Below are positions 6,307-34,981 of a stretch of 43,569 nt of DNA, piece by piece. A program made the position numbers and the translations under genes. Numbering within the stretch: position 1 is the stretch's first letter; every line of letters begins with the position of its first letter. Location of the stretch: NCBI GenBank assembly GCA_017432325.1, contig JAFRJJ010000012.1:1-43569 (forward strand). Reading direction: 5' to 3'. The DNA comes from Solobacterium sp. (GTDB taxonomy: Bacteria > Bacillota_I > Bacilli_A > Erysipelotrichales > Erysipelotrichaceae). The notes beneath the pieces were generated by a model, which saw only the letters and a program-made list of their open reading frames with translations, was not told the origin of the DNA and searched no databases.

Positions 6307-6332
6307 CAGAAAGACACAAACAGACAGAAAAA

Positions 6333-6363: not shown

Positions 6364-6366
6364 TTG

Positions 6367-7866
<1,500 letters not shown>

Positions 7867-11167: not shown

Positions 11168-11186
11168 TAATCAATAATAAAATGAC

Positions 11187-11215: not shown

Positions 11216-11236
11216 GAAAATAGAAGGAGAAAGACC

Positions 11237-12028
11237 ATGAAATTATTAGTTCAGAGCGATGATTACGGTATAACAAGAGCAGTATCCCTCGGATGCATTC
11301 ACGGCATCAGGAATGGTGTGGTAAGAAATACAGGCATGTTTGCCAACATGCCCTGGATTGAAGAGTGTGTGGAGTGGATCCGTCCGTATCTGGATCAGAT
11401 CGCTTTCGGCATTGACCTGAATGCGTCCACAGGACCTTCGATCCTCGGACATGACCGTCTCCCAACACTGACGCATGAAGATGGAACGTTCCTTGGCTCA
11501 AAAGAAAACAGAGCGCTGGATACAGATGAAAACGATCATGATCACCTGGCTGCGCACAGGGATGAACTGTATGCGGAGTTCAAAGCACAGATCGAGCGTT
11601 ATATTGAACTGGTCGGTCATAAACCGGACTATATCCACAATCATGCATATGGAACCGCAACGACTGATGAAGTGACCAGAACTCTGGCAAAGGAATACGG
11701 TGTGCTCTGCTCTGTCGCGTTCATGGACAGGCCGGAAGTCAAAGAAGCAGGCATGGGCTGGTATGTCTGGGGAGGACCGGAAGCACAGCTGAAGGAAGAT
11801 CCCATTTCCTATATCACAGAAGATAAGGGCGGCATTCTCGGAAAAGAATACGGCTATATCGTTTCCCACTGCGGTTATGCGGATGCTGAATTGTTTGAAC
11901 TGACAAGTTTCTCCACCTGCAGAGTGAAGGACCTGGAATGCATGACCAGCGAACAGGTGAAAAACTGGGTCAAAGAAAACAATGTTGAACTTGCTTCATT
12001 CAACGATCTGCCGGAGGACTGGAAATGA
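11237..12028 (+). CDS. ChbG/YdjC-type carbohydrate deacetylase
   Basis: A 263-residue protein of the YdjC/ChbG family. Characterised ChbG removes an acetyl group from chitobiose-6-phosphate. The metal-binding start motif SDDYG (residues 7-11) and the HNHAYG motif (H134, H136) are present. The middle ligand motif, usually G-x-H-L, reads FGIDLNAS, placing Asp60 where a His is expected. I believe this form recurs in related Bacillota proteins, so it may be a subfamily feature rather than damage. AGAAGGAG lies before the ATG. Its stop overlaps the next GH1 start by 4 bases. In this operon it may trim acetylated beta-disaccharides before hydrolysis. Confidence 0.87.
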   Translation: MKLLVQSDDYGITRAVSLGCIHGIRNGVVRNTGMFANMPWIEECVEWIRPYLDQIAFGIDLNASTGPSILGHDRLPTLTHEDGTFLGSKENRALDTDENDHDHLAAHRDELYAEFKAQIERYIELVGHKPDYIHNHAYGTATTDEVTRTLAKEYGVLCSVAFMDRPEVKEAGMGWYVWGGPEAQLKEDPISYITEDKGGILGKEYGYIVSHCGYADAELFELTSFSTCRVKDLECMTSEQVKNWVKENNVELASFNDLPEDWK

Positions 12029-13407: not shown

Positions 13408-14666
13408 CAAACAGATTTCTGGTCGGTGCTGCGACAGCAGGACATCAGGTAGAAGGAAACAATACAAACAGTGACACCTGGGCGATGGAACAGATGAAAT
13501 ACGGCGGTTATTCGGAAAAGTCCGGAATCGCCTGTGACCACTACAACCGCTGGAAGGAAGATATCGACATCATGAAAGCTGCCGGTCTCAATGCATACCG
13601 CTTCTCTTTGGAATGGGCACGTATTGAACCGCAGGAAGGTGTCTTTGACCGGGAAGCGACAGAACATTACCGCAGGATCCTGCTCTACTGCAGGGAATGC
13701 GGGATCGAACCGGTCGTTACGCTCGTTCATTTCACCTGTCCCAAATGGCTGATCGAACGGGGCGGATGGGAAGCAGATCAAACGGTTGAATATTTCCGCA
13801 GATATACGGAATATGTCTGCAGACAGTATGGTGATCTCCTGCATTACATCTGTACGCTTAATGAAGCTAATATGGGTGTTCTCATCAGTATCTTCATTGC
13901 CCAGGCAATGGCACACAGCCAGGAAGAAGGCGGAGCTCTGCAGATCGGCATGGATGTTGAAGCTATGGCTAAGGCAGATGCAGAAAAGAAAGAGGAAGAG
14001 CTTCAGGTCTTCGGATGCGAAGATCCCGCAGTCTTCACATCACCCCGTACAAAGCACGGAAATGATGTGATCCGCAGAGCACATATGGCAGCGGTCAGGA
14101 CGATCCATGAACTGCTTCCCAACGCAAAAGCAGGCATTACGCTGAGCCTGCGTGATATCCAGGCAGCTCCGGGCGGTGAAGCACGTGCTGCCCAAAGCTG
14201 GGAAGAAGAATTCCGCCAGTTCCTGCCTGCTATGCAGGAAGATGACTTCTTCGGACTGCAGAATTACACGCGTACCGTCATGGATGCCAGCGGGGAACTG
14301 GCACCGGAAACAGGCGCGGAACTGACCCAGATGGGTTATGAATATTATCCGCAGGGACTGGAACATGTGATCCGTACAGTTCACAAAGACTTCAAAGGAG
14401 AGATCCTTGTCACAGAGAACGGCGTTGCGACAGACGATGATACGCGCCGCGTGGAATTCATCAGGACCGCATTGGAAGGCGTCAGGGCCTGCCGCAGGGA
14501 TGGTATTCCGGTCAGCGGCTACTGCTATTGGTCACTCATGGACAATTATGAATGGCAGTCCGGTTATTCCATGCGTTTCGGACTGATCGGAGTAGACCGT
14601 AAGACACAGGAGCGTATTCCCCGTGAAAGCCTCTACTTCCTTGGTGAACAGCTGAGATCATTCTGA
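13404..14666 (+). CDS. GH1 beta-glucosidase, non-phosphorylated type
   Basis: A 420-residue, compact family 1 enzyme. The acid/base glutamate is E154 (CTLNEAN) and the nucleophile is E338 (ILVTENG). The C-terminal substrate loop reads SLMDNYEWQSGYSMRFGLIGVDR. The Glu-Trp pair (E383, W384) is what ordinary beta-glucosidases use to bind the free O4/O6 hydroxyls. The Ser-Lys-Tyr phosphate pocket of the upstream enzyme is absent. It is therefore likely to act on an unphosphorylated glycoside, unlike its two relatives in this window. A tract of about 35 residues rich in Glu and Ala (around 175-210) is inserted in the middle. It overlaps the preceding gene by 4 bases and ends the operon. Confidence 0.88.
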   Translation: MTNRFLVGAATAGHQVEGNNTNSDTWAMEQMKYGGYSEKSGIACDHYNRWKEDIDIMKAAGLNAYRFSLEWARIEPQEGVFDREATEHYRRILLYCRECGIEPVVTLVHFTCPKWLIERGGWEADQTVEYFRRYTEYVCRQYGDLLHYICTLNEANMGVLISIFIAQAMAHSQEEGGALQIGMDVEAMAKADAEKKEEELQVFGCEDPAVFTSPRTKHGNDVIRRAHMAAVRTIHELLPNAKAGITLSLRDIQAAPGGEARAAQSWEEEFRQFLPAMQEDDFFGLQNYTRTVMDASGELAPETGAELTQMGYEYYPQGLEHVIRTVHKDFKGEILVTENGVATDDDTRRVEFIRTALEGVRACRRDGIPVSGYCYWSLMDNYEWQSGYSMRFGLIGVDRKTQERIPRESLYFLGEQLRSF

Positions 14667-20375: not shown

Positions 20376-21839
20376 TTATTTCTTTGAACTGACGACTGTC
20401 AATGTTTCCATTGTTTCATCGGAAAGTCCGTGTATATATCCTCCCGACGACCGGATCTGTTTCAGATAGTCCAGTATTTCAGCAGTGAATATCTCACCCG
20501 GCCGGATCACCGGGATCCCCGGAGGATATGGAGCGATCATTTCAGCGCTGATACATCCCTGTGCTTCTTCCCAGGGGATGATCTTTTTCTTTGCGAAGAA
20601 AGCATCCCTGGGTGACATAACGTATTCAGCCTGATGAGGAACCTTGCATGTTCCGGAAAGCGGTATTCCGTCTGAATGCTGTGCAGCGATATCACTTAAC
20701 GCGGACACAAGCGTCTCAATATCTTCCTGCGTATTTGCGTTTGACACAATGGCAATGATATTTCTGCTGTCTGCCATTTCAACTTCGATATTGTGGTCAT
20801 CAAGCAGAATGGATTTGAGTTCGAATCCCGTCAGGCCCAGCTGTAAAGCGCTGATGATAAGCCTTGTTTCATCGATGCGGAATACTGATCCTGTTCCTTC
20901 AAGGTCCCGTCCGGCACATTTCAGTCCGGGTATGGAGTTGATCCTGTTCCTTGCAGTACAGGCTAGCTCCAATGCGTTTTCAGCCATTTCTGTTCCATGC
21001 AGGGCCAGATCTCTTCTGGCTGTGTCGATGGATGTCATCAGGATATACGACGGACTGCTGCTCTGTACGATCTGCAGGCTTCTTTTCAGCAGTTCAATAT
21101 CCACAGAACTGCTTTTGACATGCAGAAGGGAACTCTGCGTCAAAGCGCCGGCAGTCTTGTGCAGGCTCTGTACGCACATATCCGCGCCGCATGCCAGCGC
21201 TCCTTGAGGAAGCTTTTCGGAAAAGTAACAGTGCGGTCCATGTGCTTCATCCACCAGCAGAAGCGCACCGTGTCTGCGGCATATCTCCGCCAGCGCACGG
21301 ATGTCAGAAACGATCCCGTAATAGTCGGGGCTTGTTACGAGCAGTGCCCTGCAGTCAGGATACTTCTCAAACAGCCGCCCTGCCTCAGCAGGGGAGATGC
21401 CTCCGGGGATATCCCATTCATCGATCGTCTCAGGCATGATATAAACAGGTTCCGCTCCGCTCAGGATCAGCGCGTTGTACACAGATTTGTGACAGTTCCC
21501 GGCGATCATGATCTTTTCCCCGGGTCTGACCGCAGACAGCACCATTGCTTCATTGCCGCAGGTACTGCCGTTGACCAGGAAAAATGTCTGATCTGCTCCC
21601 CAGAGAGCTGCCGCAAGTTCCTGTGCTTCCTTGATCGCGCTGACCGGACAGTGAAGGTCATCTGTGACCACTGTTTCCGTGATGTCGATCTTGAAAATAT
21701 TGTCACCTGCAAATGATCTGAAGCCTGCTTCGACACCGTTCTCATAACGGTGCCCGGGCACGCAGAAATAAGCAGGTCTCAGATCTGCATATTTCATGGC
21801 TGCTTCAAAGATGGGTGCTCTGTTCTGGTCACGGTTCAT
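20376..21839 (-). CDS. Orn/Lys/Arg decarboxylase-type PLP enzyme
   Basis: A 487-residue fold type I PLP enzyme of the Orn/Lys/Arg decarboxylase major domain family (SpeA/YaaO/Cad-like short form). Diagnostic parts are FCVPGHRYENG, DITETVVTDDLHCPVSAIKEAQELAAALWGAD, the substrate-channel FLVNGSTCGNEAMV, VTSPDYYGIVSDI, the cofactor aspartate in LLVDEAHGPHC, and the PLP lysine K228 in SLHKTAGALTQSS. The C-terminal domain (about 400-487) contains APYPPGIPVIRPGE, typical of the family. It lacks the N-terminal wing domain of the large E. coli enzymes, like Bacillus SpeA. It probably decarboxylates arginine or lysine, which would support polyamine synthesis or acid tolerance. AGAGG lies 7 bases before the ATG. 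It is a single gene. Confidence 0.92.
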   Translation of the reverse strand: MNRDQNRAPIFEAAMKYADLRPAYFCVPGHRYENGVEAGFRSFAGDNIFKIDITETVVTDDLHCPVSAIKEAQELAAALWGADQTFFLVNGSTCGNEAMVLSAVRPGEKIMIAGNCHKSVYNALILSGAEPVYIMPETIDEWDIPGGISPAEAGRLFEKYPDCRALLVTSPDYYGIVSDIRALAEICRRHGALLLVDEAHGPHCYFSEKLPQGALACGADMCVQSLHKTAGALTQSSLLHVKSSSVDIELLKRSLQIVQSSSPSYILMTSIDTARRDLALHGTEMAENALELACTARNRINSIPGLKCAGRDLEGTGSVFRIDETRLIISALQLGLTGFELKSILLDDHNIEVEMADSRNIIAIVSNANTQEDIETLVSALSDIAAQHSDGIPLSGTCKVPHQAEYVMSPRDAFFAKKKIIPWEEAQGCISAEMIAPYPPGIPVIRPGEIFTAEILDYLKQIRSSGGYIHGLSDETMETLTVVSSKK

Positions 21840-24530: not shown

Positions 24531-24947
24531 ATGATGAGATTTGAACATACCAACAGACATGGATTTCTGCTTGGATTCATTGATTTTTTCACAGCAGGAT
24601 TATTCTTTGTCGTATATATGAAGCTTGACCTGCAGGATGAGCTGGATGAGATCCTCGGCAGGAAAACGCAGCGCTATTACGTTGCCTATCTGGTCGGTAT
24701 CCCGACATTGTTTATTTATACACTGGTGTGGATGGCAAGGATCTCCGAGGAACTGAAGGAGAAAGCGATCGAACTGGGGATACCCGGCAAACACACATCG
24801 TTCAGGCATATGTTCGGATGGAATACACTGGGAATGCTGGTGCTGGTCGGTCCGATGGTCGCCACACACAGGTTTTTCAATACATTGAATCAGGTCGAAA
24901 AGGAATTGAACAGAAGGAACGGATATTCTGAAAGGAACACAATATGA
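24531..24947 (+). CDS. DUF4234-like small membrane protein
   Basis: A 138-residue membrane protein with about three hydrophobic segments (GFLLGFIDFFTAGLFFVVYM, YVAYLVGIPTLFIYTLVWMARI, HMFGWNTLGMLVLVGPMVATH). The pattern of a short N-terminal helix after a charged start, W-M-A-R-I-S-E-E-L, and a C-terminal N-x-L-N-Q-V-E-K segment resembles DUF4234 proteins. GGGGAAGC precedes two adjacent ATG codons. The second (24534) is equally possible. Its stop overlaps the start of the GH4 gene by 4 bases, so the two are probably coupled, though a functional link is not obvious. Function unknown. Confidence 0.6.
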   Translation: MMRFEHTNRHGFLLGFIDFFTAGLFFVVYMKLDLQDELDEILGRKTQRYYVAYLVGIPTLFIYTLVWMARISEELKEKAIELGIPGKHTSFRHMFGWNTLGMLVLVGPMVATHRFFNTLNQVEKELNRRNGYSERNTI

Positions 24948-26386
24948 GGTACACGGAAAACGGGAAAGTTGAAAACATTCAGATCGCGTATATCGGCGGA
25001 GGATCCAGGGGCTGGGCATGGACATTCATGACAGACCTGGCCATGGAAGACAGGATCGGCGGGACGATCAGACTTTATGACATTGATGAACAGGCTGCCG
25101 GGCGCAATATGGTGATCGGCAATCATCTGATGTCACGTGAAGACACCAGAGGAGACTGGACATTTGAAGTCAGCACCAGCTTGAAAGACGCACTGACAGG
25201 AGCGGACTTTGTTGTGATCTCGATCCTCCCGGGAACATTCGATGAGATGGAATATGATGTTCATCTTCCGGAACGGCTGGGCATCTGGCAGTCGGTCGGA
25301 GACACAGCAGGACCCGGCGGGATGATCCGTGCGCTGCGCTCTATCCCCATGTTTGTTGAGATCGCGGAAGCGATCAAAGCATATTCCCCTGACGCATGGG
25401 TGATCAATTATACGAATCCGATGTCACTGCTCGTGAAAACACTGTATACGGTATTCCCTGATATCAAAGCGTTCGGGTGCTGCCATGAAGTATTCGGAAC
25501 ACAGAAGGTACTGAAGGGTATCTATGAACTCGAAACAGGTGATCCTGTTGAGGACTGGCATGAAGTCATGGTCAATGTCATCGGTATCAATCATTTCACA
25601 TGGTTTACGGAAGCTTCCTGCCACGGCAGGGATCTGTTCCCGATATACAGAAAATATATCGACGAGCATTATGAAGAAGGATATACACCCGGTATCGCGC
25701 CTCAGGATAAAGGCTGGATGGACGATGTATTCAAATGCGGTCACAGGGTCAAGATGGATCTGTTCAACAGGTATGAGGCCATTGCGGCTGCCGGTGACAG
25801 ACACCTGGCGGAATTCATGCCGGGAGACGAATACCTGAAGGATCCGGAAACTGCGCGGTCCTGGCTGTTCAGCCTGACGCCGGTCTCATGGCGCAAAGAG
25901 GACCTGAAGAGACGTCTTGCCCGCAGTGAACGGCTGCTGAAGGGTGAAGAAGAGATCCCGCTCGTATCTACGGGTGAAGAAGGGATCCTCCTGATCAAGG
26001 CACTGCTCGGACTGACCCGTGTCATATCCAACGTCAACATTCCCAATGATGCCCTGCAGATCCCGAATCTTCCGCAGGATGCGGTCGTGGAGACAAATGC
26101 CGTATTCTCTCATAACAGTGTACGGCCAGTTGCTGCAGGAAAACTGTCCGATGAACTGAAACAGCTGATCCTGCCGCATGTGGAAAACCATGAAAGGATC
26201 TACCGGGCAGCTGTTACGGCAATGGAACCGGGACATGCAGAGGAGTGCAGGAAACTTGTTGCCGAAGCATTTATGCATGATCCGCTGATCATTGGACATC
26301 ATCTCTCGGAAGAGGATATTCAGGCATTGGTCAATGATATGATCGATCATACATCTGCATATCTTCCGGAAGGCTGGAACCGTTAA
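24944..26386 (+). CDS. GH4 family glycosidase (alpha-glucosidase/alpha-galactosidase type)
   Basis: A 480-residue family 4 glycosidase, which cleaves glycosides by an NAD+- and metal-dependent oxidation-elimination mechanism in the cytoplasm. The N-terminal NAD loop reads AYIGGGSRGWAW (residues 15-26). TNP (157-159) is present, and the metal ligands are Cys180 and His181 of GCCHEVFG with His217 of GINHFTW. The R-A-L-R-S-I-P segment (129-135) is typical of the unphosphorylated alpha-galactosidase/alpha-glucosidase branch. The length fits AglA/MelA-type enzymes. GAAAGGAAC precedes the ATG. It overlaps DUF4234 upstream and ends in a terminator before the PTS operon, so it is a separate unit. The substrate linkage is not certain. 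Confidence 0.9.
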   Translation: MRYTENGKVENIQIAYIGGGSRGWAWTFMTDLAMEDRIGGTIRLYDIDEQAAGRNMVIGNHLMSREDTRGDWTFEVSTSLKDALTGADFVVISILPGTFDEMEYDVHLPERLGIWQSVGDTAGPGGMIRALRSIPMFVEIAEAIKAYSPDAWVINYTNPMSLLVKTLYTVFPDIKAFGCCHEVFGTQKVLKGIYELETGDPVEDWHEVMVNVIGINHFTWFTEASCHGRDLFPIYRKYIDEHYEEGYTPGIAPQDKGWMDDVFKCGHRVKMDLFNRYEAIAAAGDRHLAEFMPGDEYLKDPETARSWLFSLTPVSWRKEDLKRRLARSERLLKGEEEIPLVSTGEEGILLIKALLGLTRVISNVNIPNDALQIPNLPQDAVVETNAVFSHNSVRPVAAGKLSDELKQLILPHVENHERIYRAAVTAMEPGHAEECRKLVAEAFMHDPLIIGHHLSEEDIQALVNDMIDHTSAYLPEGWNR

Positions 26387-26405
26387 AATAGAAATCAGTC
26401 ATACG

Positions 26406-26436
26406 ATCTGCTTTCAGAAATGGAGGCAGATTTTTT
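26406..26436 (+). terminator. terminator of GH4 gene
   Basis: ATCTGC (26406-26411) pairs with GCAGAT (26426-26431), followed by a run of six Ts that separates the GH4 gene from the mannose-family PTS operon. Confidence 0.75.
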
Positions 26437-26475
26437 AGTTTTGTTTCCGGCAGGGGGCAGACACCTTCTGAAATA

Positions 26476-26555
26476 TATAGATAAATTTATGCAAATATAT
26501 ATAGACAAATACCGCAAAATAATATATATTAAAAGCGCGAAAGGTATAGATAAAT
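26476..26555 (+). promoter_or_regulatory. three TATAGAYAAAT direct repeats at the PTS operon promoter
   Basis: TATAGATAAAT occurs at 26476-26486, TATAGACAAAT at 26500-26510 and TATAGATAAAT at 26545-26555, the last touching the start codon. The second copy contains the -35 TAGACA (26502-26507), and TATATT (26525-26530) follows after 17 bases. The same core recurs before the divergent SIS gene and the GntR gene. HutC-type GntR operators usually have a GT-N-TA-N-AC-like core, which this resembles. A weak cre-like AAAAGCGC lies at 26531-26538. Confidence 0.7.
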
Positions 26556-26984
26556 ATGAAGCGAGTAGTTCTACTGACACACGGGGAGCTCGGCAGAGGA
26601 TTCATGAGTGCCATGAAGGTCATCTCAGCTGAGGATGCCGACATCCAGACGATTGCACTTCAGCCGGAGGATTCTCCGGAAACACTGACGGGAAAGATCG
26701 CAGAAACACTTGGGAAATATGAGGTTTCTGATCTGAAGATCCTGATGACTGATGTCCCGTTCGGTTCAACAACACAGACAGCCATACCGTTTCTGATGGA
26801 AACAGAGAACCTGTACATCGTAAGCGGAACAAACCTCGGCCTGCTGATGGGTGTGCTGATGGATACGTTTGAAGACTGCAGCGTAACTGAAAGACTGCAC
26901 GATCTGATCGCCCAGAGCAGGGAGACAGTCTCACTGATCAACGACATGCTGGATAACAGCGACGAAGACGAAGAAGAATTGTAA
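26556..26984 (+). CDS. PTS EIIA component, mannose family
   Basis: A 142-residue mannose-family EIIA. The phosphorylation site is His9 in LLTHGELGRGF. The conserved MTDVPFGST segment and the helix ETENLYIVSGTNLGLLMGVLMD match the Man-type EIIA fold. It takes the phosphate from HPr and passes it to EIIB. The C-terminus is acidic (DNSDEDEEEL). It is a free-standing EIIA, not fused to EIIB. Its start codon is contacted by the third regulatory repeat, and AAAGG at 26540 serves as ribosome binding site. It is the first gene of the A-B-C-D-SIS operon, with 11 bases to the EIIB gene. Confidence 0.92.
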   Translation: MKRVVLLTHGELGRGFMSAMKVISAEDADIQTIALQPEDSPETLTGKIAETLGKYEVSDLKILMTDVPFGSTTQTAIPFLMETENLYIVSGTNLGLLMGVLMDTFEDCSVTERLHDLIAQSRETVSLINDMLDNSDEDEEEL

Positions 26985-26995
26985 GGAGGAGAACA

Positions 26996-27481
26996 ATGAT
27001 TCAATTACTGCGCGTAGATGACAGATTGATCCACGGACAGGTTGCTGTGTACTGGGTAAAGGCTGTCAATGCATCAACGATCGTTGTGGCCAGCGATAAG
27101 TATGCAGAAAATTCTGTTCTGAAAATGTCCCTGAACGTAGGAAAGCCTGCAGGTGTAAAGATGCCTGTACTGACGATCGAAAAGGCGATCGAGTATCTGA
27201 ATGACCCGAAGAACGATAAGAAAAAGATCTTTGTGGTCACAGGCAGCTGCGCAGACGCACTGGCGCTCTGCAAAGGCGTAAACGGTATTGAAGCAGTCGA
27301 TATCGGCGGCATCAGACATGCCGAGGGACGCGTCAGTGTATCTTCCCAGGTACATCTGCTGCAGGAAGATATGGACGCCATCGAATCCATGGCGGAACTG
27401 GGAAAAGACGTGTATGTCCAGGAAGTTCCCAGTAAGTCAAAAATGCCGCTGAATGAGATCCGCGCAAACTTCACAAAATAG
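26996..27481 (+). CDS. PTS EIIB component, mannose/sorbose family
   Basis: A 161-residue mannose-family EIIB. The active-site loop RVDDRLIHGQV holds His13, the residue phosphorylated by EIIA. KMPVLTIEKAIEYL, IDIGGIRHAEGRVSVSSQVHL and the C-terminal IRANF are typical of the family. AAGGAGGAGAAC precedes the ATG. It lies between the EIIA and EIIC genes in the same operon. It would transfer the phosphate to C6 (or a terminal hydroxyl) of the incoming sugar compound. Confidence 0.93.
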   Translation: MIQLLRVDDRLIHGQVAVYWVKAVNASTIVVASDKYAENSVLKMSLNVGKPAGVKMPVLTIEKAIEYLNDPKNDKKKIFVVTGSCADALALCKGVNGIEAVDIGGIRHAEGRVSVSSQVHLLQEDMDAIESMAELGKDVYVQEVPSKSKMPLNEIRANFTK

Positions 27482-27539
27482 TGCAAACACGAATGAACAT
27501 CTATGAAAAGAAATCTGTAAAAGGGGGTAAGTAAAAAGT

Positions 27540-28283
27540 ATGTTCTTAATTCAGTGTATTCTGATCGCTCTGGTCCATGTCCTGGGTATTCTGGACGGCC
27601 GTATTTTTGGTCAGAATCTTCTCAACACACCGATCGTTGAGGCAACTCTGGTCGGCATTATCTGCGGTGATGTTGTTACCGGTCTGACAATGGGCGCAAC
27701 GCTCCAGCTGATCTTCATGGGATTTGTCGGCATCGGAGCTACAAGCCTTCCCAACTCTTCGGCAGGAACGATCCTGGCTGTCTCATTCGCTATCCTCTCA
27801 AAGCTTGAACCGGAAGCAGCTATCGCGCTTTCCATGCCGATCGCTCTGCTGTTCCAGCCCTGCGGGATCATTCCCCGTATCTTCAACAACATCTGGAACG
27901 TCAAATGCGATGAAGCAGCTGACAAAGGTGATTTCAAGGCTGTTGAAAGATACTTCTGGTATGGTGTATGCGCATTCGCAGTCGTTTACTTTGTACCGAT
28001 GTTCCTTGCGGTATACTTCGGTTCCGGTGCTGTAGAAGCGATCATCAATGTGATCCCGAAAGTTGTTCTGGCCGGTCTGAATAAAGCATCCAGCCTTCTG
28101 CCTGCACTTGGTATTGCTCTGCTGATGAATTATATCGTTGACAAAGATGCAATTCCGTTTATGATTCTCGGCTTCGTCCTGGCCGCATTCATGGGTGTCA
28201 GCTCGCTTGGCATCGCTCTGATCGGTCTGGCGATCGCACTTGTTTACTACAACTTTAAAGGCACATCTGAGGAGGATTATTGA
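27540..28283 (+). CDS. PTS EIIC component, mannose/sorbose family
   Basis: A 247-residue membrane permease of the mannose/sorbose EIIC family, with about seven hydrophobic segments. Typical blocks are the N-terminal LIQCILIALVHVLGILDGRIFGQNLL, GVVTGL-like DVVTGLTMGATLQLIFMGFVGIGA, and the C-terminal domain ending in FKGTSEEDY. AAAGGGGGTAAG precedes the ATG. The stop lies 2 bases before the EIID start, so C and D are translated as a pair. Together with EIID it forms the membrane channel. It contains no cytoplasmic phosphorylation site, as expected. Confidence 0.92.
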   Translation: MFLIQCILIALVHVLGILDGRIFGQNLLNTPIVEATLVGIICGDVVTGLTMGATLQLIFMGFVGIGATSLPNSSAGTILAVSFAILSKLEPEAAIALSMPIALLFQPCGIIPRIFNNIWNVKCDEAADKGDFKAVERYFWYGVCAFAVVYFVPMFLAVYFGSGAVEAIINVIPKVVLAGLNKASSLLPALGIALLMNYIVDKDAIPFMILGFVLAAFMGVSSLGIALIGLAIALVYYNFKGTSEEDY

Positions 28284-28285
28284 TC

Positions 28286-29146
28286 ATGACAACAGCAGAA
28301 AACAAGAATGAACTGGTTGCAGGAAAGATGACAAAACAGGAATTCAAGAGCGGATTCTGGCGTTCATGCGCACTGCAGGGCTGCTTCAACTACGAGCGCC
28401 AGCAGGGCCTTGGCTTCGGATACGCAATGATTCCTCACCTGAGACGCATTTACAAGGATGATGAAGAAGGGTTCAAAGCAGCTCTGAAGCGCCACCTGAC
28501 GTTCTACAATATCACTCCTCAGTGCACGACCTTCGTACAGGGCATCGCTGTTGCCATGGAAGAAGAAGCGTCAGAAAACAAAGAGTTTGACGCAAGTTCC
28601 ATCAACGCTGTCAAAACAGCTCTGATGGGTCCTCTGTCCGGTATCGGTGACTCCATTTTCTGGGGAACACTGAGAACGATCGGACTTGGTGTAGGTCTGT
28701 CATTCTGCATGCAGGGCAATATTCTCGGCCCGATCATGTTCCTCCTGATCCACAACATCCCGCACTGGATCGTCCGTTATAAGGGCCTTGAGATCGGTTA
28801 TACACAGGGCATGAGCTTCATGGAGAACGCAACGGAAAGCGGTGTTCTCGAAAAGTTCACAGTCGCTGCAAAGATCCTCGGTGCTACAGTCGTCGGCAGT
28901 ATGATCGCTACTATGATCAGCTTCACAACAACGATCACCCTGAACATGGGCAACTATCAGACACTTGCGCTGCAGTCTGTATTTGATCAGATCATGCCGA
29001 AGTTCCTTCCGATGGTCCTGGCAGTAACATGCTTCCAGCTGATCAGAAAAGGAAAGAAGACAACGACCGTCATGCTGATCCTGTTCCTTGCCGCATTCGT
29101 CATCGCATTCCTCGAAGGATTGGCTATCTTCGCGCCGGCTGCGTAA
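28286..29146 (+). CDS. PTS EIID component, mannose family
   Basis: A 286-residue mannose-family EIID. Family-defining parts are the N-terminal MTKQEFKSGFWRSCALQGCFNYERQQGLGFGYAMIPHLRRIY, PLSGIGDSIFWGTLR, GNILGPIMFLLIHNIPHWIVRYKGLEIGYTQG, and the C-terminal membrane helices. I start at the ATG at 28286, with GAGGAGG 10 bases upstream. A TTG at 28280 would overlap the EIIC stop. It partners EIIC in the membrane. The mannose family is the only PTS class with a D subunit, so all four components are present here. Confidence 0.93.
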   Translation: MTTAENKNELVAGKMTKQEFKSGFWRSCALQGCFNYERQQGLGFGYAMIPHLRRIYKDDEEGFKAALKRHLTFYNITPQCTTFVQGIAVAMEEEASENKEFDASSINAVKTALMGPLSGIGDSIFWGTLRTIGLGVGLSFCMQGNILGPIMFLLIHNIPHWIVRYKGLEIGYTQGMSFMENATESGVLEKFTVAAKILGATVVGSMIATMISFTTTITLNMGNYQTLALQSVFDQIMPKFLPMVLAVTCFQLIRKGKKTTTVMLILFLAAFVIAFLEGLAIFAPAA

Positions 29147-29155
29147 TAAACTGCA

Positions 29156-30235
29156 ATGACATACGATATCTATAATTACATTCTTGAGTCTGCAGAAACC
29201 GTCAGGAATCTGATCGCTTCAAAAGAAGAAACGATGCATGATGCTGTAGAGTACCTGGCAGACAAAGATGTCAGAAGAGTAGTGATCCTGGGATCCGGAA
29301 CCAGCTACCATGCGTGTGTCGCAGCTAAACGCAGTATGGCAAAGTCCCTTGGCATCCCTGTGGAATGCATGTATCCGATCGATTTCAAAGATGGAGAAGT
29401 TGTCCGTCAGGAAGGTACGGCAGTTATTGGAATCAGTCAGGCAGGCAGAAGCACATCTACGATCCTCGCTCTCCAGAAGGCAAAGGAACTAGGATATTAC
29501 ACGATATCCTGCACTTCCGAGAGAAACACACCTGTTCAGGAAGAGGGCGAATGCTATCTTCATCTGAATGTCGGTGAGGAACTGAGCGGTCCGAAAACAA
29601 AAGGCTTTATCGGATCGATCGCCGAGCTGGCACTGTTTGCGGCAGTACTGGCATGCAGAAAAGGCAGAATGACTCCGGAAGAAGTCAGCGCGCTCGAGAA
29701 CAGACTGATCGCGTCCTCCGAGAACATTCCGGATATTGCGGAAAAGTCCAGAGCATGGGCGGAAAGCAATATCGAAGAACTTGAAAAATGCCGGAGACTG
29801 ATCATTGTCGGCTATGGCGGCTGCATTGGTGCGATGATGGAAGGAAGCCTGAAGATCCTGGAAGGTGTCAGATGTTCTGTTACGGGATACCAGATGGAAG
29901 AGTTCATGCACGGCATCTATCATTCCGTTTGGGAGAATGATTACATCATTTACCTGGCAGAACCGGGAGAATATTACAGCCGTCTGAAAGGCATGCTGAG
30001 ATACTTTGATGAAGAACGTCACGCGCATCAGTTCGTGGTTACTTCGGACAAAGCATTCGAAAACAGCAGGAACGCATTTGTATATCCGTTCAGGGACGAT
30101 GAAGACTTCGCCACGATGGAATATGTTGTTCCCCTCCAGGTCATCACAAAGGTCGTTTCAATGAGACTTGGTATTGACTGCAATATTCCAAGTGACACAC
30201 AGTTCCATCAGAAGATGGGAAGCTATCGTTACTGA
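29156..30235 (+). CDS. SIS-domain sugar-phosphate enzyme, Amadori deglycase-like
   Basis: A 359-residue protein with two SIS domains (about 30-165 and 200-340), the build of GlmS's isomerase half and of the fructoselysine/glucoselysine-6-phosphate deglycases FrlB, GfrE and GfrF. Phosphosugar-binding motifs are ILGSGTSYHA and ISQAGRSTSTI, and VGYGGCIGAMMEG starts the second domain. EEFMHGIYHSVWEN carries the glutamate and histidines that in such deglycases do acid-base catalysis. In context it would split the phosphorylated compound brought in by the PTS into a sugar phosphate and an amine or amino acid. There is no clear ribosome binding site, so it may rely on coupling to EIID, which ends 9 bases upstream. 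Isomerase activity is an alternative. Confidence 0.82.
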   Translation: MTYDIYNYILESAETVRNLIASKEETMHDAVEYLADKDVRRVVILGSGTSYHACVAAKRSMAKSLGIPVECMYPIDFKDGEVVRQEGTAVIGISQAGRSTSTILALQKAKELGYYTISCTSERNTPVQEEGECYLHLNVGEELSGPKTKGFIGSIAELALFAAVLACRKGRMTPEEVSALENRLIASSENIPDIAEKSRAWAESNIEELEKCRRLIIVGYGGCIGAMMEGSLKILEGVRCSVTGYQMEEFMHGIYHSVWENDYIIYLAEPGEYYSRLKGMLRYFDEERHAHQFVVTSDKAFENSRNAFVYPFRDDEDFATMEYVVPLQVITKVVSMRLGIDCNIPSDTQFHQKMGSYRY

Positions 30236-30250
30236 TCGGGCAAATACAAA

Positions 30251-30312
30251 GAAGGAGTTGTGGAAAACCTCCGGTTAAAAAGCCGGAAGCTGCACAACTT
30301 CTTTTTTTTTCG
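30251..30312 (+). terminator. strong terminator of PTS/SIS operon
   Basis: AGTTGTG (30256-30262) pairs with CACAACT (30293-30299), extended inside by CTCCGG/CCGGAAG, and is followed by a run of ten Ts with one C at its start. Confidence 0.85.
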
Positions 30313-30333
30313 TCTGCACCCGGGTCCCTGCCA

Positions 30334-30492
30334 TCAGGTAAAGGGGATCGTCGGATAGTCCATTTCGTAATTTCTGCACAGATCCATGAATTTTTTCACA
30401 CTTTCAGTCAGATGTTTTTTCCGATGTCTGACGATCGAGCAGTATCTTGCAAATTCCAATCCTTCCACATGGATTTCAACCACCTGTTTCTT
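30334..30492 (-). pseudogene. C-terminal remnant of a LysR-type regulator
   Basis: On the minus strand a 52-codon frame, bounded by stops, contains GLEFARYCSIVRHRKKHLTE followed by SVKKFMDLCRNYEMDYPTIP. This resembles the last strand and helix of a LysR effector domain. No helix-turn-helix or earlier part is found upstream in any frame. It is a truncated relic in the gap between the two SIS genes. Confidence 0.5.
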
Positions 30493-30524
30493 TCATCCTT
30501 CTGACAGTCATAAAAGGGGAAACC

Positions 30525-30734
30525 ATGAAATACAAACTTATGAGTGATACACTTTACAGTTCTGATGATCAGCAGTTCACAATGATCCGTTCCTAATTCT
30601 GCACTCAGGAAAAGAAGATCAGCGCTGTTGAGCCTGAATATAAAGAACATGAAGAACCTACTGAGGTCGGATGGCTTATCAACAGGATGCCGGTGGTGAA
30701 TCATGCTTTGCTGAAAATGTCCGGTACCAGCTGA
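30525..30734 (+). pseudogene. degenerate open frame of unknown family
   Basis: An ATG with AAAAGGGG 4-11 bases upstream starts a frame encoding MKYKLMSDTLYSSDDQQFTM, interrupted by TAA at 30594-30596. It then continues in frame through EPEYKEHEEPTEVGWLINRM to a TGA at 30732. The good ribosome binding site and protein-like composition on both sides of one stop suggest a small inactivated gene. I do not recognise the family. The overlapping minus-strand frame is not convincing. Confidence 0.35.
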
Positions 30735-30769
30735 TAAAGGAAAACAGCCCTTTTCTTACGCCTGTCACA

Positions 30770-30800
30770 AAAGAAAAGCAGCCGCTGGGACTGCTGCTTT
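30770..30800 (-). terminator. terminator of the minus-strand SIS gene
   Basis: Read on the minus strand, AAAGCAGC and GCTGCTTT form a perfect 8-base stem (30800-30793 and 30782-30775) followed by TCTTTTGT. It lies 24 bases after the SIS stop codon. Confidence 0.7.
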
Positions 30801-30823
30801 CCGGAAAGTGGGGGTACAGATTC

Positions 30824-31894
30824 TTATCTGGCTTTGGTCGCCATCTTCTGCATGAAGCGCCATGTATAGATGGTGATCCCGCTTGCACGTGTATCGTCAC
30901 AGATCCGTGAAGCGATCACCTGGAAGGGAATGACAGCCAGCAGGGGCAGAAGTACAGGATCGATATCCGTATCCAGAGTCAGTACCCTGCTGCCTGAAGC
31001 CTGGGCGGATACAAGATACACATGATCTGTCAGCTGACGCATTGCGTCGAAGATCTGCAGCGCACGGTCATGGCTTTCCCGGTCAACGTCTACCAGGAAG
31101 ATGCTGTGCGGTTTTTTGATCTCATAAACGGGACCGTGGAGGAACTCTTCCATTTCATAGAAATTGGACGGGAGACCGACAGTCTCTTCAAGCTTCAGCG
31201 CACCTTCCTGGGCGACTCCCAGACCCGGACCGATCCCCACTGTCATGACACGCTCCATGCTGCAGAGGTCAGTTTTGTTTGCCTCATAGAACGCATCAGC
31301 CTTTTCACGTACAGCAGGCATCAGCTCGACTGCTTTTTTCAGATCACTGACTGCCTTTTTGTACTGTTCTTTCGTGCAGCTGCCTGTTTTTACACCGGCA
31401 TCCAGCGCGAACAGGATCAGGAACAATGTGGATGTCGGAACACCTCTGCAGACAAATACGTCTTTTCCTGCTTCATGTGATCCATACAGGAATGTATGCT
31501 CACAAGCCTGCTCCAGCGGAGATCCGGGCTCTGATACCAGTGCCGCAACATCGTTCCCGCACTGCTTTGCCCGGTCGAGAGCAGCCAGCGTATTTGTGCT
31601 TCTGCCGCCCTGTGAGAGGCAGATGACCAGTGCACCTTCATGGAAGCGGTAATCGTACTTTTCGTATGTTACGGAATGAATGACTTCAACTTTTTTGCCG
31701 AGATACTTTTCCATTGCGTATTTTGCGCATGACGCAATATTGAATGAGGAACCTGATGCAGCGATCACGATCTTCGTATAGTTTTTCGAAGTATAGATGT
31801 CAGTAAGTCCGCTGACCAGTTTGTCTTTGTTCTGCAGGATCTGCCGGCAGTTTTCCGGTGCTTCAAGCACACAGTCGTACATCCATTTTTTCAT
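30824..31894 (-). CDS. second SIS-domain sugar-phosphate enzyme, Amadori deglycase-like
   Basis: A 356-residue, two-SIS-domain protein clearly distinct from the enzyme at 29156. The first domain shows IAASGSSFNIASCAKYAM and ICLSQGGRSTNTLAAL. The second shows VGIGPGLGVAQEGALKLEETVGLPSNFYEMEEFLHGPVYEI, with the catalytic Glu and His in EEFLHGP as in GlmS-like and FrlB-like enzymes. AAAGGAGG lies 7 bases before the ATG at 31894. A frame to 31930 passes through it. Salmonella's glucoselysine/fructoselysine system likewise has two such enzymes (GfrE, GfrF) with different substrates, so the pair here may split two related PTS products. Its promoter carries the same TATAGAT motifs as the PTS operon. 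Confidence 0.82.
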   Translation of the reverse strand: MKKWMYDCVLEAPENCRQILQNKDKLVSGLTDIYTSKNYTKIVIAASGSSFNIASCAKYAMEKYLGKKVEVIHSVTYEKYDYRFHEGALVICLSQGGRSTNTLAALDRAKQCGNDVAALVSEPGSPLEQACEHTFLYGSHEAGKDVFVCRGVPTSTLFLILFALDAGVKTGSCTKEQYKKAVSDLKKAVELMPAVREKADAFYEANKTDLCSMERVMTVGIGPGLGVAQEGALKLEETVGLPSNFYEMEEFLHGPVYEIKKPHSIFLVDVDRESHDRALQIFDAMRQLTDHVYLVSAQASGSRVLTLDTDIDPVLLPLLAVIPFQVIASRICDDTRASGITIYTWRFMQKMATKAR

Positions 31895-31934
31895 GTTTGG
31901 AACCTCCTTTGGAATACATATGCTGTACACAAGT

Positions 31935-32018
31935 ATTATAGATTATATAGATATATAAATCAACATAAATATATAGATAATATATGAAATAATCTTGCTA
32001 AATATATAGATATATGAT
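31935..32018. promoter_or_regulatory. TATAGAT motif cluster and SIS promoter
   Basis: On the minus strand TTGATT (31963-31958), 17 bases, then TATAAT (31940-31935) forms a near-consensus promoter for the SIS gene. Four TATAGAT cores lie at 31937, 31946, 31972 and 32005. AAATATATAGATAA (31967-31980) is identical to 26471-26484 before the PTS operon. The cluster lies between the divergent SIS and GntR genes. The rest of this gap to 32217 holds a further AT-rich patch near 32180-32195 and no gene I can support. Confidence 0.7.
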
Positions 32019-32217
32019 AGATTGTTGCCATGAACAGATCACTGCAGAATGACAGAAGAAAAGTTGGAAAAACAGCGGATTACTGCAATAATATGCGGTC
32101 TGCCGGCGGCTTTTTTGACGGAAGGACATCAGGAAAGGGACTGCATGACATTGATATGGATTTATCTGCATTGAGTCTGATAATATATATACGTAAATCG
32201 GTCCCAAACGGGTATAC

Positions 32218-32961
32218 ATGAAAGAGCAGACTATGAAACAGAAAGCTAAATATCAGATTATTGAAGACTATGTTATTGAGGAGATCAAAAACAAGCACCT
32301 GAAGCCGGGTGATCAGATCGAAACGGAAATGCAGCTGAGCCAGAGATTCGGTATCGGCAGACTGACAGTCAACAGGGCACTGATCAATCTTGCCAATGCG
32401 GGGTATATTACCCGTATTCCGGGAAAAGGCTCATTCGTCCAGCAGGCAACCATCAGCAAGAATCTTATAACAAGCAAAGGAAGCTTTTCGGAAGATATGC
32501 GTTCGATCGGACTGAAACCGGGTTCCCGGCTGATCGAATACAGGCTTGTTACGGGAAAAGAAGCACCTGAAGCCGCAGGCTTCCTCAGGCTGGGCCCCGA
32601 ACAGAGAATGCATTACTTTGTAAGGGTCAGGACCGGAGATGATACGCCGATCGCGGTGAGTTATACATACCTCTCGGCGGAGCTGATCCCTGTGCTGGAT
32701 GTACGTGCTCTGGATGGTTCACTGAACGAATATCTGCGTTCGATCGGGATCGATTCCAGCGGCGGTGCCGAGTATAAGATGTCTGCACATCTTCCGACAG
32801 AGCGGCAGAAGGAACTGCTGGGGGTCGATGAGGCAGCACTTCTCAGGAATGCGCATGTTACGTACAACGCCGATGACGTGCCATATGAATATATTGAAAC
32901 GTATTATCTGTGTACCAGATATGAATATACGTTCTCGACCCGAGGTAACAAGGATTCATAA
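32218..32961 (+). CDS. GntR family regulator, HutC subfamily (UTRA domain)
   Basis: A 247-residue GntR/HutC regulator. The N-terminal winged helix (about 8-78) reads QIIEDYVIEEIKNKHLKPGDQIETEMQLSQRFGIGRLTVNRALINLANAGYITRIPGKGSFV. The C-terminal UTRA domain (about 95-240) is the phosphosugar-type sensor (RVRTGDDTPIAVSYTYLSAELIPVLD, YEYIETYYLCTRYEYTF). The ATG at 32218 or 32233 may be used, and neither has a strong ribosome binding site. FrlR, which controls fructoselysine use in other bacteria, belongs to the same subfamily. It probably binds the TATAGAT repeats in front of both SIS transcription units and releases them when a phosphorylated substrate binds. This is inferred from motif sharing and position. 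Confidence 0.88.
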   Translation: MKEQTMKQKAKYQIIEDYVIEEIKNKHLKPGDQIETEMQLSQRFGIGRLTVNRALINLANAGYITRIPGKGSFVQQATISKNLITSKGSFSEDMRSIGLKPGSRLIEYRLVTGKEAPEAAGFLRLGPEQRMHYFVRVRTGDDTPIAVSYTYLSAELIPVLDVRALDGSLNEYLRSIGIDSSGGAEYKMSAHLPTERQKELLGVDEAALLRNAHVTYNADDVPYEYIETYYLCTRYEYTFSTRGNKDS

Positions 32962-32980
32962 AAATGGATCCTTTTATTTT
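32950..32980 (+). terminator. terminator at the end of the GntR gene
   Basis: AAGGATTCAT (32950-32959) pairs with ATGGATCCTT (32964-32973), one wobble, AAAA loop, followed by TTATTTTATG. It overlaps the GntR stop codon and may limit read-through into the HAD gene. Confidence 0.75.
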
Positions 32981-32997
32981 ATGATCAGGAGAAGAAA

Positions 32998-33672
32998 ATG
33001 AATCAGGAATCATATTATGAACTTGTAATAACCGATGTTGACGGTGTTCTGTTCAATACGGAACATATCTTCCGGAGTGCCTACCGGATAATCGGCGAGA
33101 AGCACGGCATTCCTGCCTTGAACGAAGATCTGTTTGTCAGGACCACAGGGATCAGCGGTGCAGATACCGAGAAACTGTTTGACCGTGTTCTTCCGCACAT
33201 ACCTGACAGAAGAATGCTTCTGGAAGAGATCAGGCAGCTTGGAATAGAGATGATCCGGAAAGATCTGCAGCTGCTTCCGGGCGCCCGGGAAATGCTTGAT
33301 TACTGGCATCAGAAAAAAGTCCCTCTCTGCGCGGCAACATCCACGATACGGTCATTGACGGAAGAGCGGTTCGGCAGGATGGATATCATGCATTATTTCA
33401 GCTTTATTATCTGCGGTGACGAAGTGCGTCATAAGAAACCAGATCCGGAGATCTACAGAACGGTGATGGACCGCATGAATAAGCGGCCGGAAAGAACGCT
33501 TGTCTTTGAGGACACGGGTTACGGCGTCAGAGCTGCATACTCTGCCGGCGCAGACTGTGTATGGATCCCGGCTGTAACAGAACTTACGGAAGAAGAAAAG
33601 CAGATGACCAGATATATGGCCGGAGATATGTATGATGCCATCACTTTCATTGAAAACATACGGGCAGACTGA
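32998..33672 (+). CDS. HAD-superfamily sugar phosphatase/phosphoglucomutase-like
   Basis: A 224-residue HAD subfamily IA protein. Motif I is ITDVDGVLFNTE (nucleophile Asp13, Asp15), motif II is CAATST, motif III is the lysine in RHKKPDPEIY, and motif IV is VFEDTGYGVRAA. The cap domain of helices (about 20-95) is typical of beta-phosphoglucomutase-like and small-sugar-phosphate phosphatases. CAGGAGAAGAAA precedes the ATG. It follows the GntR regulator and overlaps the MATE gene by 41 bases. In this locus it might remove phosphate from a sugar phosphate by-product to relieve its toxicity, but the substrate is unproven. Confidence 0.87.
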   Translation: MNQESYYELVITDVDGVLFNTEHIFRSAYRIIGEKHGIPALNEDLFVRTTGISGADTEKLFDRVLPHIPDRRMLLEEIRQLGIEMIRKDLQLLPGAREMLDYWHQKKVPLCAATSTIRSLTEERFGRMDIMHYFSFIICGDEVRHKKPDPEIYRTVMDRMNKRPERTLVFEDTGYGVRAAYSAGADCVWIPAVTELTEEEKQMTRYMAGDMYDAITFIENIRAD

Positions 33673-34981
33673 CAGCAGGATCATCAGGATTCTGATCCCT
33701 GTCATCATCGAGAACGGATTGATGACATTATCAGGCATGGTCCTGACAGGATATATCGGAAGGCTACCGGTCATGGATATCAATGCGTACGGATTGTGCA
33801 CAAGGATATACAGTATTTACGGAGCACTGATCAGGGGCATGGCTGCGGCAGTGCTTGTTCTGCTTGCGAAAGAACTCATGAAGCGCAGACGGCATTTGGT
33901 CAATCACCTGATACAGGAATGCTACATGGAGATACTGTTTGTTTCCGTGCTGCTGTCTGTTCTGATCCTGATCTGTTCCGGATGGATCCTGTCATTTATG
34001 AGCAGGGATCCAGTACTGCTTGCCGGGGGAAAACGTCTGCTTCTGCAGACAGTTTGGTTTTATCCGCTGTTTGCGCTGATCCGCCTGAATGCCAGCGCAT
34101 TCCAGGCTAAGGGTAATACCGGAACACCGATGAAGATCGCTGTTGCGGGCAACATCGTCAGTATCATCTTCGGATACATCTGGATCTTCGGGATCGGTTC
34201 TTTTCATGGATACGGGATCAGCGGGGCAGCTATGGCACAGAATCTTTCGCTGTGTGTGATGTTTCTGCTCGGTACATTTCTGCTCTATGGAAAAGGCGGT
34301 GAATATGAGGGCGCCTTTGAAAACTGGAAAATGCAGGATTTTTCCGGCAGTTCAAAGCTGATCAGAATGGGTATTCCTGCTGCGCTGGAAGACTCGTTCT
34401 GGCAGTTTGCGGCAGTAATGATCAGCAGGATCATACTCGGATACGGCCAGGAATATTACGCGTCCTACCAGCTTGGTCTGCAGGCAGAGGGCTTCTGCGA
34501 TACGATGTCAGCAGGCTTTATGACTGCTTCACTGTCCCTGGCTTCCGGATCATCGGAAGAACAGAACGGTGTATACCTGAAACGCCTCAGATTTTTCTGC
34601 CGGATCGTGATCATGATCACGATGCTGTTTCTGCTGACGCTGTCGTCAAAAGTTCTCGGGCTGCTCACAGACAAGCCCGAACTGATCAGGATCGCGTCCG
34701 GGTACCTGCTGGTCATGGTCTTTTCCCAGTATCCCACGCATATGCAGAAGATCTCCAACGGATTTATCAAGGCTTCCGGCCGTGCAGGTACGACAATGAC
34801 AGTCAACCTGGTCGGTCTGTGGCTGATCAGGGTCCCGCTTGTGTACCTGCTTGGCAGTGTACTGAATGCGGATATTATGATGATCTGGTGGGCGTTCAAT
34901 GCGGATCTGTGGTTCAGGTTCATCCTGCTGGAGATCATACTCAAAAGGCAGAGATCCACAGCAGCACAGCAGATGCGATAA
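33632..34981 (+). CDS. MATE family efflux transporter
   Basis: A 449-residue membrane protein with about 12 hydrophobic helices arranged as two similar halves, the hallmark of MATE transporters. The N-terminal half begins IIRILIPVIIENGLMTLSGMVLTGYIGRL, the second half begins LIRMGIPAALEDSFWQFAAVMISRIILGYG. MATE proteins export cationic drugs or metabolites in exchange for Na+ or H+. The ATG at 33632 follows CCGGAG by 6 bases, so the gene overlaps the HAD gene by 41 bases. A later start is possible but would shorten the first helix's lead. The cargo is unknown. Confidence 0.82.
   Translation: MMPSLSLKTYGQTDSRIIRILIPVIIENGLMTLSGMVLTGYIGRLPVMDINAYGLCTRIYSIYGALIRGMAAAVLVLLAKELMKRRRHLVNHLIQECYMEILFVSVLLSVLILICSGWILSFMSRDPVLLAGGKRLLLQTVWFYPLFALIRLNASAFQAKGNTGTPMKIAVAGNIVSIIFGYIWIFGIGSFHGYGISGAAMAQNLSLCVMFLLGTFLLYGKGGEYEGAFENWKMQDFSGSSKLIRMGIPAALEDSFWQFAAVMISRIILGYGQEYYASYQLGLQAEGFCDTMSAGFMTASLSLASGSSEEQNGVYLKRLRFFCRIVIMITMLFLLTLSSKVLGLLTDKPELIRIASGYLLVMVFSQYPTHMQKISNGFIKASGRAGTTMTVNLVGLWLIRVPLVYLLGSVLNADIMMIWWAFNADLWFRFILLEIILKRQRSTAAQQMR

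Follow-up and report, generated by a model that had tools for sequence, protein, structure and literature searches.

A mannose-family PTS locus of Solobacterium with two GlmS/GfrE-side SIS enzymes, predicted to act on glucose with an amine at carbon 2

We analyzed a 43,569-nucleotide stretch of DNA from Solobacterium sp. (hereafter, the window), which lies on contig C67 of a 3.34 Mb assembly (G000; completeness 94.7%). The window contains a locus (positions 26,476–34,981) in which a mannose-family phosphotransferase system (PTS) is accompanied by two SIS enzymes, designated SIS1 and SIS2, together with a GntR-type regulator, a HAD phosphatase, and a MATE exporter. Profile models, a tree, and active-site residues place both SIS enzymes on the side of GlmS and of GfrE, which has been described as a glucoselysine-6-phosphate deglycase (PMC12675984). 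From these sequence comparisons, we give just short of an even chance to the prediction that the system serves glucose carrying an amine at carbon 2, either a Heyns-type conjugate such as glucoselysine or another N-substituted glucosamine. The features of the locus are as follows.

26556–26984, plus strand: EIIA of a mannose-family PTS (PF03610, 43 bits).
26996–27481, plus strand: EIIB of a mannose-family PTS (PF03830, 152.6 bits).
27540–28283, plus strand: EIIC of a mannose-family PTS (PF03609, 231.5 bits; 80% identity to the Holdemania-like locus L147).
28280–29146, plus strand: EIID of a mannose-family PTS (PF03613, 322.6 bits; 83% identity to L147).
29156–30235, plus strand: SIS1, a GlmS/GfrE-side SIS enzyme by tree, alignment, and model; predicted 2-amino-2-deoxyhexose-6-phosphate deglycase.
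30824–31894, minus strand: SIS2, a GlmS/GfrE-side SIS enzyme that groups with GfrE-position proteins; predicted glucoselysine-6-phosphate-type deglycase.
32218–32961, plus strand: GntR/HutC-family (UTRA) regulator (PF00392 and PF07702 above cut-off); predicted repressor of both transcription units.
32998–33672, plus strand: HAD phosphatase of the beta-PGM/YqaB kind (profile matches); recurrent partner of SIS1.
33632–34981, plus strand: MATE exporter (TIGR00797, 163.1 bits against a cut-off of 147.4); recurrent partner of SIS1 within the genus.
26473–26511, plus strand: two copies of TATATAGAYAWA before EIIA (26474–26485 and 26498–26509); candidate GntR operator.
31943–32015, plus strand: two copies of TATATAGAYAWA in the divergent SIS2/GntR region (31944–31955 and 32003–32014), plus a related word at 31969–31983.

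Profile matches recovered every gene named in a preliminary description of the locus (PTS A-B-C-D, a SIS enzyme, a second SIS enzyme on the opposite strand, GntR/UTRA, HAD, and MATE), and the four PTS subunits, which lie in one run, all exceed their Pfam cut-offs. The two-SIS-domain architecture given there also holds: SIS2 contains two Pfam SIS stretches, and SIS1 contains one above and one below the cut-off. Both proteins are 356–359 amino acids long and consist of SIS only, without the fused glutaminase domain of GlmS. SIS2 was listed with a start at 31930, but its homologues (for example P0121, 356 amino acids) and the Shine-Dalgarno-like AAAGGAGG indicate that the true start most likely lies near 31894. 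The gene order is kept in two further assemblies, in which EIIA to MATE are 98–100% identical (L028 in G090, contig C153; L029, identical to L152, in G102, contig C76), and the locus is therefore not a chance arrangement. SIS1 is 98–99% identical at near-identical loci in metagenome-assembled genomes of Solobacterium sp., one of which comes from dairy-cattle duodenum. The gap between SIS1 and SIS2 measures ~2.9 kb in the sister locus L028 (~4178–7108) and 0.6 kb in the window, so DNA was gained or lost between them.

Among curated models, both SIS proteins matched GlmS best (126.9 and 107 bits, far under the GlmS cut-off) and NagB-II next (NF046059; 68.9 and 88.6 bits against a cut-off of 430). 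Scores with FrlB, the fructoselysine-6-phosphate deglycase, were 23.5 and 51.0 bits (cut-off 430), and those with AgaS (TIGR02815) were 31.2 and 30.8 bits (cut-off 529.2). A tblastn search of plasmids gave no close homologue (all <60%) and supplied reference operons; the reference set comprised E. coli frl, the gfr-ordered operons of E. faecium and Klebsiella, a plasmid-borne operon of E. faecium that contains a HAD gene besides two SIS genes, and operons of Lactobacillus amylovorus and Collinsella. With the NCBIfam models, the GfrE-position protein of E. faecium also matched GlmS best (133.5 bits), and the GfrF-position protein matched FrlB best (79.4 bits). The former falls as far under the NagB-II and AgaS cut-offs as the SIS proteins of the window do.

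A tree of 76 SIS proteins gave the same division. FrlB and GfrF form a single branch of 16 rows (support 100/99). SIS2 lies within a 10-row clade (97/96) that holds the GfrE-position proteins of E. faecium and Klebsiella, labels assigned by gene order and similarity; records outside E. coli say only "SIS domain-containing protein". SIS1 belongs to a separate clade of 39 rows (98/96) that has no GfrE, still on the GlmS side; we found no characterized member of this clade. The deepest joins are unsure owing to the long branches of AgaS, GlmS, FrlB, and others. Such a tree had been suggested as a way of telling AgaS/GlmS isomerases from deglycases, with grouping of both proteins among the isomerases as part of a refutation. 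The outcome lies half-way: both proteins do fall on the GlmS side, yet that side includes GfrE, and the GfrE-position proteins share a clade with SIS2. The genome has a third SIS gene of the GfrE side on contig C21 (L106:4025–5104); it encodes a protein 43% identical to a GfrE-like protein of an E. faecium plasmid and adjoins PdxA and a gene whose product has sugar-binding and nucleotide-binding domains.

Alignment to E. coli GlmS revealed that SIS1 and SIS2 both retain Ser303, Gln348, Glu481, Lys485, Glu488, and His504 (GlmS numbering). GlmS works on an amine at C2, and FrlB on an amine at C1. The 76-row alignment has the pair Glu481/Lys485 in 58 of 58 GlmS/GfrE-side rows, SIS2 and its clade included, and in none of the 16 on the FrlB side; E. 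coli GlmS and AgaS, which make up the rest, carry both residues as well. FrlB-side rows align differently at positions 481–485 in two alignments, neither of which places the Glu/Lys pair in any of them. Because the side labels derive from similarity, the pair is a consistent signature rather than independent proof. The predicted structures of the two SIS proteins (pLDDT 93.5 and 88.2) are closest to C. difficile CD3275 (3g68), Listeria Lmo0035 (2aml), Salmonella NP_459565.1 (3knz), and the isomerase domain of GlmS.

The preliminary description favored an Amadori compound of the fructoselysine type as substrate. That proposal finds no support in models, identity, tree, or residues, none of which makes either SIS protein FrlB- or GfrF-like, and three queries found no such gene elsewhere in the same genome. 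The alternative it allowed, another amino-linked sugar, is supported. In G000, a query with E. faecium GfrF returned only a 652-amino-acid two-SIS frame taken as GlmS, and a GfrF-like query from the genus returned only SIS2, weakly (34.8 bits); positive controls in G004, G099, and G110 were recovered. The same genus query identified a candidate on another contig (C100) of the sister assembly G102. The protein (L177:1913–2968) is 47% identical to an FrlB-like protein of E. faecium and matches the FrlB model best, at 69.7 bits of 430; its gene stands alone, with no PTS, kinase, or SIS genes within the 9 kb examined. As a query, this protein had no match in G090 (completeness 84%), and in G000 it matched the GlmS-like frame alone. 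The window genome shows no FrlB/GfrF-type gene within its completeness; the species at large may possess one.

The Gfr system of Salmonella and Enterococcus faecium (gfrABCDEF and GfrR) resembles the window locus in joining a mannose-family PTS A–D to two SIS enzymes, one of them directly behind EIID, and in the grouping of its GfrE-position proteins with SIS2. It differs in several respects. The window has no GfrF/FrlB-type enzyme at the locus or, as far as found, elsewhere in the genome; SIS2 lies on the other strand, SIS1 comes from another clade, and HAD and MATE are attached. Gfr is governed by GfrR, a sigma-54 LevR-type activator, whereas the window regulator is of the GntR/UTRA type with its own motif; the largest open reading frame (ORF) in the window is at most 537 amino acids, and GfrR-like frames elsewhere are ~880. 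The Gfr-like scheme proposed earlier survives in its PTS and two SIS enzymes under GntR/UTRA instead of sigma-54 control, but not in its GfrF-type partner. The substrates of GfrE and GfrF are given in PMC12675984, where the legend to Figure 1 states them in reverse relative to the text. A seven-gene fructoselysine operon of Faecalibacterium prausnitzii (PMC12136445) is likewise a Gfr-like PTS operon of a gut Firmicute with a regulator unlike that of Salmonella, but it keeps gfrF and lacks gfrE, the reverse of the window locus. Fra and Frl systems share a SIS deglycase and, in the case of FraR, a regulator assigned to the GntR family (PMC4941530); phosphorylation is carried out by a kinase (FraD, FrlD) rather than a PTS, and no kinase was found among the ten genes scanned at the locus. 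Of the FrlR-type control first suggested, the GntR and UTRA domains are present, but kinship to FrlR itself is weak (22% identity).

Two further groups of loci are closer relatives. The Holdemania-like loci L147 and L149 contain GntR, SIS2, and EIIABCD genes (GntR 57%, SIS2 55–56%, EIIC 80%, and EIID 83% identical) with the motif before EIIA, but they have no SIS1 or MATE in the run; behind EIID they carry a threonine-aldolase-like gene and a distant HAD (27–28%). The product of this gene in L149 is a pyridoxal phosphate aldolase above the GntG cut-off (410.6 bits) and narrowly above that for low-specificity L-threonine aldolase (317.8 of 312); by eye, L147 carries a comparable frame at this place. 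This aldolase may hint that the amine released there is a hydroxy amino acid. A search of the window genome for it, run without a positive control, gave no match. The second group comprises eight gfr-type operons of the genus (L051, which is the same as L155, L107, L154, L157, L158, L159, L163, and L164), in which a SIS1 homologue shares a run with HAD and MATE. Unlike the window, they contain a GfrF-like SIS, and in those stretches that include both EIIC and the SIS1 gene, EIIC is only 29–32% identical. A sigma-54 activator lies upstream in five of the eight (L154, L155, L157, L163, and L164); L159 has a divergent GntR, L107 has no regulator upstream, and L158 has none in the stretch examined. 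In seven of the eight (L107, L154, L157, L158, L159, L163, and L164), the GfrF-like protein has Asn at the equivalent of His504 and sits on a long branch, and L051 keeps His. The Asn-bearing proteins may no longer be ordinary fructoselysine-6-phosphate deglycases.

With same-species loci left out, the nearest counterparts of the window's GntR, SIS2, and EIIA–D are in L147 and L149, those of HAD and MATE in the gfr-type operons of the genus, and those of SIS1 in L030 (62%) and L162 (57%). By these identities, the locus is a mosaic of Holdemania-like and genus gfr-type parts. Gfr-like PTS operons in gut Firmicutes (PMC12136445) and GntR-family control of a SIS deglycase (PMC4941530) are already in print. 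A literature search for such an arrangement, covering listings, abstract openings, and selected passages, returned no system with GfrE-side enzymes only and no HAD or MATE partner. Three features are new as far as these searches go: a pair of enzymes both on the GfrE side, a private motif, and the repeated company of HAD and an exporter.

The motif TATATAGAYAWA has four matches in the window, and the same four are the only ones in the 3,335,006 bases of the genome. All lie in the control regions of EIIA or SIS2/GntR, and it is this placement, rather than their number, that is unusual. The second copy before EIIA overlaps a −35-like hexamer at 26502; WTATAGAYAWAT follows with one mismatch at 26544–26555. 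In the divergent region, the first copy sits between −35-like and −10-like hexamers on the SIS2 strand. Sites on or between the promoter-like hexamers of EIIA and SIS2 are as expected for a repressor. The sigma-70 promoter scan behind these assignments gave 14 matches where 15.5 were expected and was used only for position. A shorter form, the 9-mer WTATAGAYA, was fixed before the Holdemania-like loci were inspected. L147 and L149 (18–19 kb) each contain a single match, directly before EIIA; the GntR proteins of these loci are the closest to that of the window among those compared. The 15-base motif and its Markov null, which were set after L147 and L149 had been seen, are not independent of them. 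We infer that the local GntR protein binds the TATATAGAYAWA motif as a private switch.

Gene neighborhoods of homologues were also compared. An order-wide search at E ≤ 1e-60, which included G000 and the two sister assemblies, identified SIS1-like genes in 31 of 315 genomes and SIS2-like genes in 8. We collected 73 loci from named genomes and annotated 49 with at least 31% identity (L028–L076), of which L076 fell just under the 31% line and was left out of the tally. The tally comprises 64 SIS1-like gene rows (29 at ≥41% and 35 at 31–40% identity). The window itself is among them, three loci contribute two genes apiece, and seven duplicate loci and three rows of the same species were dropped. 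EIID lies within ~8.5 kb of the SIS1-like gene in 56 of the 64 rows (21/29 and 35/35). HAD occurs in the same run in 11/29 and 17/35 rows. Outside the species of the window, the genus contributes 12 genomes with 13 SIS1-like loci, all of which were examined: HAD shares the run in 12, MATE does so in 10, and in 8 a single run joins the SIS1 homologue to PTS genes and a GfrF-like gene. Four of these stretches (L131, L153, L156, and L161) end at contig ends near these genes. In L160 (identical to L036), an EamA exporter replaces MATE; in Collinsella L045, two EamA genes lie behind SIS1. These same-run counts indicate that a phosphatase often, and within the genus an exporter also, accompanies SIS1. 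The earlier view that HAD and MATE stand outside described systems does not take into account that both recur beside SIS1 homologues in the gfr-type operons of the genus and that the two-SIS operon on the E. faecium plasmid ends in a HAD gene.

Among the 29 closest rows, 12 have SIS1 kin beside a NanE-like 2-epimerase of 2-amino-sugar 6-phosphates (two in the genus; two tested by HMM, the rest by BLAST), and three have them with a PfkB kinase, a NagB-like protein, and an ABC importer. SIS1 homologues also share runs with SIS genes of other clades (SISbac-type in 10/29; GfrF-like in 4/29 and 5/35). Many operons contain, between NanE and SIS1, a small protein with weak, sub-cut-off TPR signals (L038:7286–7936 and L034:7221–7973); comparison of the former with solved structures gave no match. 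Small proteins that match no Pfam family are encoded toward the end of gfr-type operons in the genus (L107:7686–8150 and L163:9752–10285). Behind SIS1, L107 encodes an AstE/AspA-family amidohydrolase (6547–7689; DoeB 67.9 bits, cut-off 402.7), with same-length ORFs in L153 and L159, which may hint that the amine released there is N-acylated.

The window also holds genes outside the locus. A GH4 gene at 24944–26386 was excluded from the system as unproven: a terminator-like hairpin (26405–26432) stands behind it, no exact motif copy lies upstream, and the compared loci outside the species gave no GH4 match. A short gene resembling Lys/Orn/Arg decarboxylases (20376–21839, minus strand), far under the model cut-offs, lies ~5 kb from the locus. 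A separate sugar cluster at 9908–14666 encodes a lactose/cellobiose-family PTS IIC, a ChbG-like deacetylase, and two GH1 phospho-glucosidase-like proteins.

These parts can be assembled into a predicted pathway. EIIABCD would import glucose bearing an amine at C2 and phosphorylate carbon 6, after which SIS1 or SIS2 would split the resulting 2-amino-linked glucose 6-phosphate, releasing fructose 6-phosphate and the amine; the two enzymes might act on different conjugates or epimers. GntR would repress EIIABCD-SIS1, SIS2, and its own gene until the phosphorylated substrate occupies its UTRA domain. HAD and MATE could form a relief valve, in which HAD would dephosphorylate an uncleaved, toxic 6-phospho-conjugate and MATE would expel the conjugate or the released amine. 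The idea draws by analogy on the known answer to sugar-phosphate stress, phosphatase plus efflux. It was suggested by the neighborhood of HAD and MATE and by the toxicity of uncleaved 6-phosphofructose-aspartate in fraB mutants (PMC4941530).

Several observations weigh against this pathway. SIS2 is only 27–28% identical to the GfrE-position proteins, whose own labels stem from gene order and similarity. The TATATAGAYAWA pattern was written from sites that the search then returned, and reversed as a control it has eight matches genome-wide, so a count of four is not itself above chance. The motif is mostly absent beside remoter GntR genes: in 32 further rows (29 distinct loci; GntR 39–49% identical), a site lies near a GntR or pathway gene in four (L032, L039, L040, and L171). 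Over all tally rows, MATE shares the run in only 6/29 and 4/35, and the roles proposed for HAD and MATE derive solely from neighborhood. Sequence alone does not settle which substrate is used or which amine leaves, and both stand as a prediction; the operons nearest to that of SIS2 have an aldolase-like gene, not a second SIS gene, after the PTS, so the amine need not be lysine. Two more points, the inclusion of the deaminases NagB-II and AgaS on the GlmS side, which means that the chemistry could be plain deamination of amino sugars, and the FrlB-type gene of G102, lead to other explanations of the locus.

The first explanation, unlikely but to be taken seriously, is ordinary use of amino sugars: glucosamine, N-acetylmannosamine, or a related sugar would enter through the PTS, and SIS1 and SIS2 would be glucosamine-6-phosphate deaminases of the NagB-II/AgaS kind that yield fructose 6-phosphate and ammonia. 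The ranking of GlmS and NagB-II as best and next-best models fits this view, as do the NanE-like epimerases and NagB-like proteins beside close SIS1 kin and L151, where a gene of the SIS2/GfrE clade shares an operon with NagA (262.6 bits of 225.65, above the NCBIfam cut-off). However, NagB-II and AgaS scores fall far under their cut-offs, an argument blunted by the GfrE-position protein, which falls equally far. No NagA was found by profile scans of the ten genes tested at the locus, and the genome already has a NagB match above cut-off (L172, C56:89925–90653), albeit with one in-frame TGA. Two SIS enzymes, a phosphatase, and an exporter also exceed the needs of deamination.

A true Amadori system, in which SIS1, SIS2, or an FrlB-type enzyme encoded elsewhere cleaves a C1-linked fructosamine 6-phosphate to glucose 6-phosphate and an amine, appears improbable. 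Gene content like that of gfr-ordered operons, the precedent of FraR for GntR-type control of a SIS deglycase (PMC4941530), and the residual growth of a gfrF mutant on fructoselysine, for which relaxed specificity of GfrE or another deglycase was suggested (PMC12675984), speak for it. So does G102, where an FrlB-type gene exists beside a near-identical locus, albeit on another contig; some strains may thus also handle Amadori products. Against it, neither SIS protein lies on the FrlB/GfrF branch, both have the residue pair missing from all 16 FrlB-side rows, and neither G000 nor G090 yielded an FrlB/GfrF-type gene within its completeness. Least probable is that the SIS pair serves as a phosphosugar isomerase or an obligate heterodimer on a sugar phosphate that bears no amine, so that no deglycation takes place. 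In GlmS, two subunits together form the active site, and SIS1 homologues often share a run with SIS genes of other clades, but the full GlmS catalytic set in both proteins means that neither looks like an inactive partner, and the neighbors of SIS1 kin are genes of the amino-sugar type.

Degradation of Amadori compounds by gut bacteria is studied because heated food brings such compounds. On the fructose-derived branch, GfrE is the only deglycase named in the passages cited, and glucoselysine was set aside in a 2025 paper as a poor nutrient of Salmonella that posed a synthesis problem (PMC12675984). The prediction of a C2-amine substrate could be extended, doubtfully, to a pathway that serves only the C2-linked branch (Heyns products, derived from fructose), with two different GlmS-like deglycases, no Amadori enzyme, and its own HAD/MATE detoxification valve; the 39-row SIS1 clade would then be a new deglycase family, some members of which would be paired with NanE-type epimerases for both Heyns epimers. 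A locus in which one private motif ties two GfrE-side enzymes together and which itself lacks an FrlB would allow a clean test of the Heyns branch. The tree and the Glu481/Lys485 pair would provide a simple, testable rule that separates C2-amine from C1-amine SIS enzymes in operons in which these proteins carry only the generic SIS-domain name.

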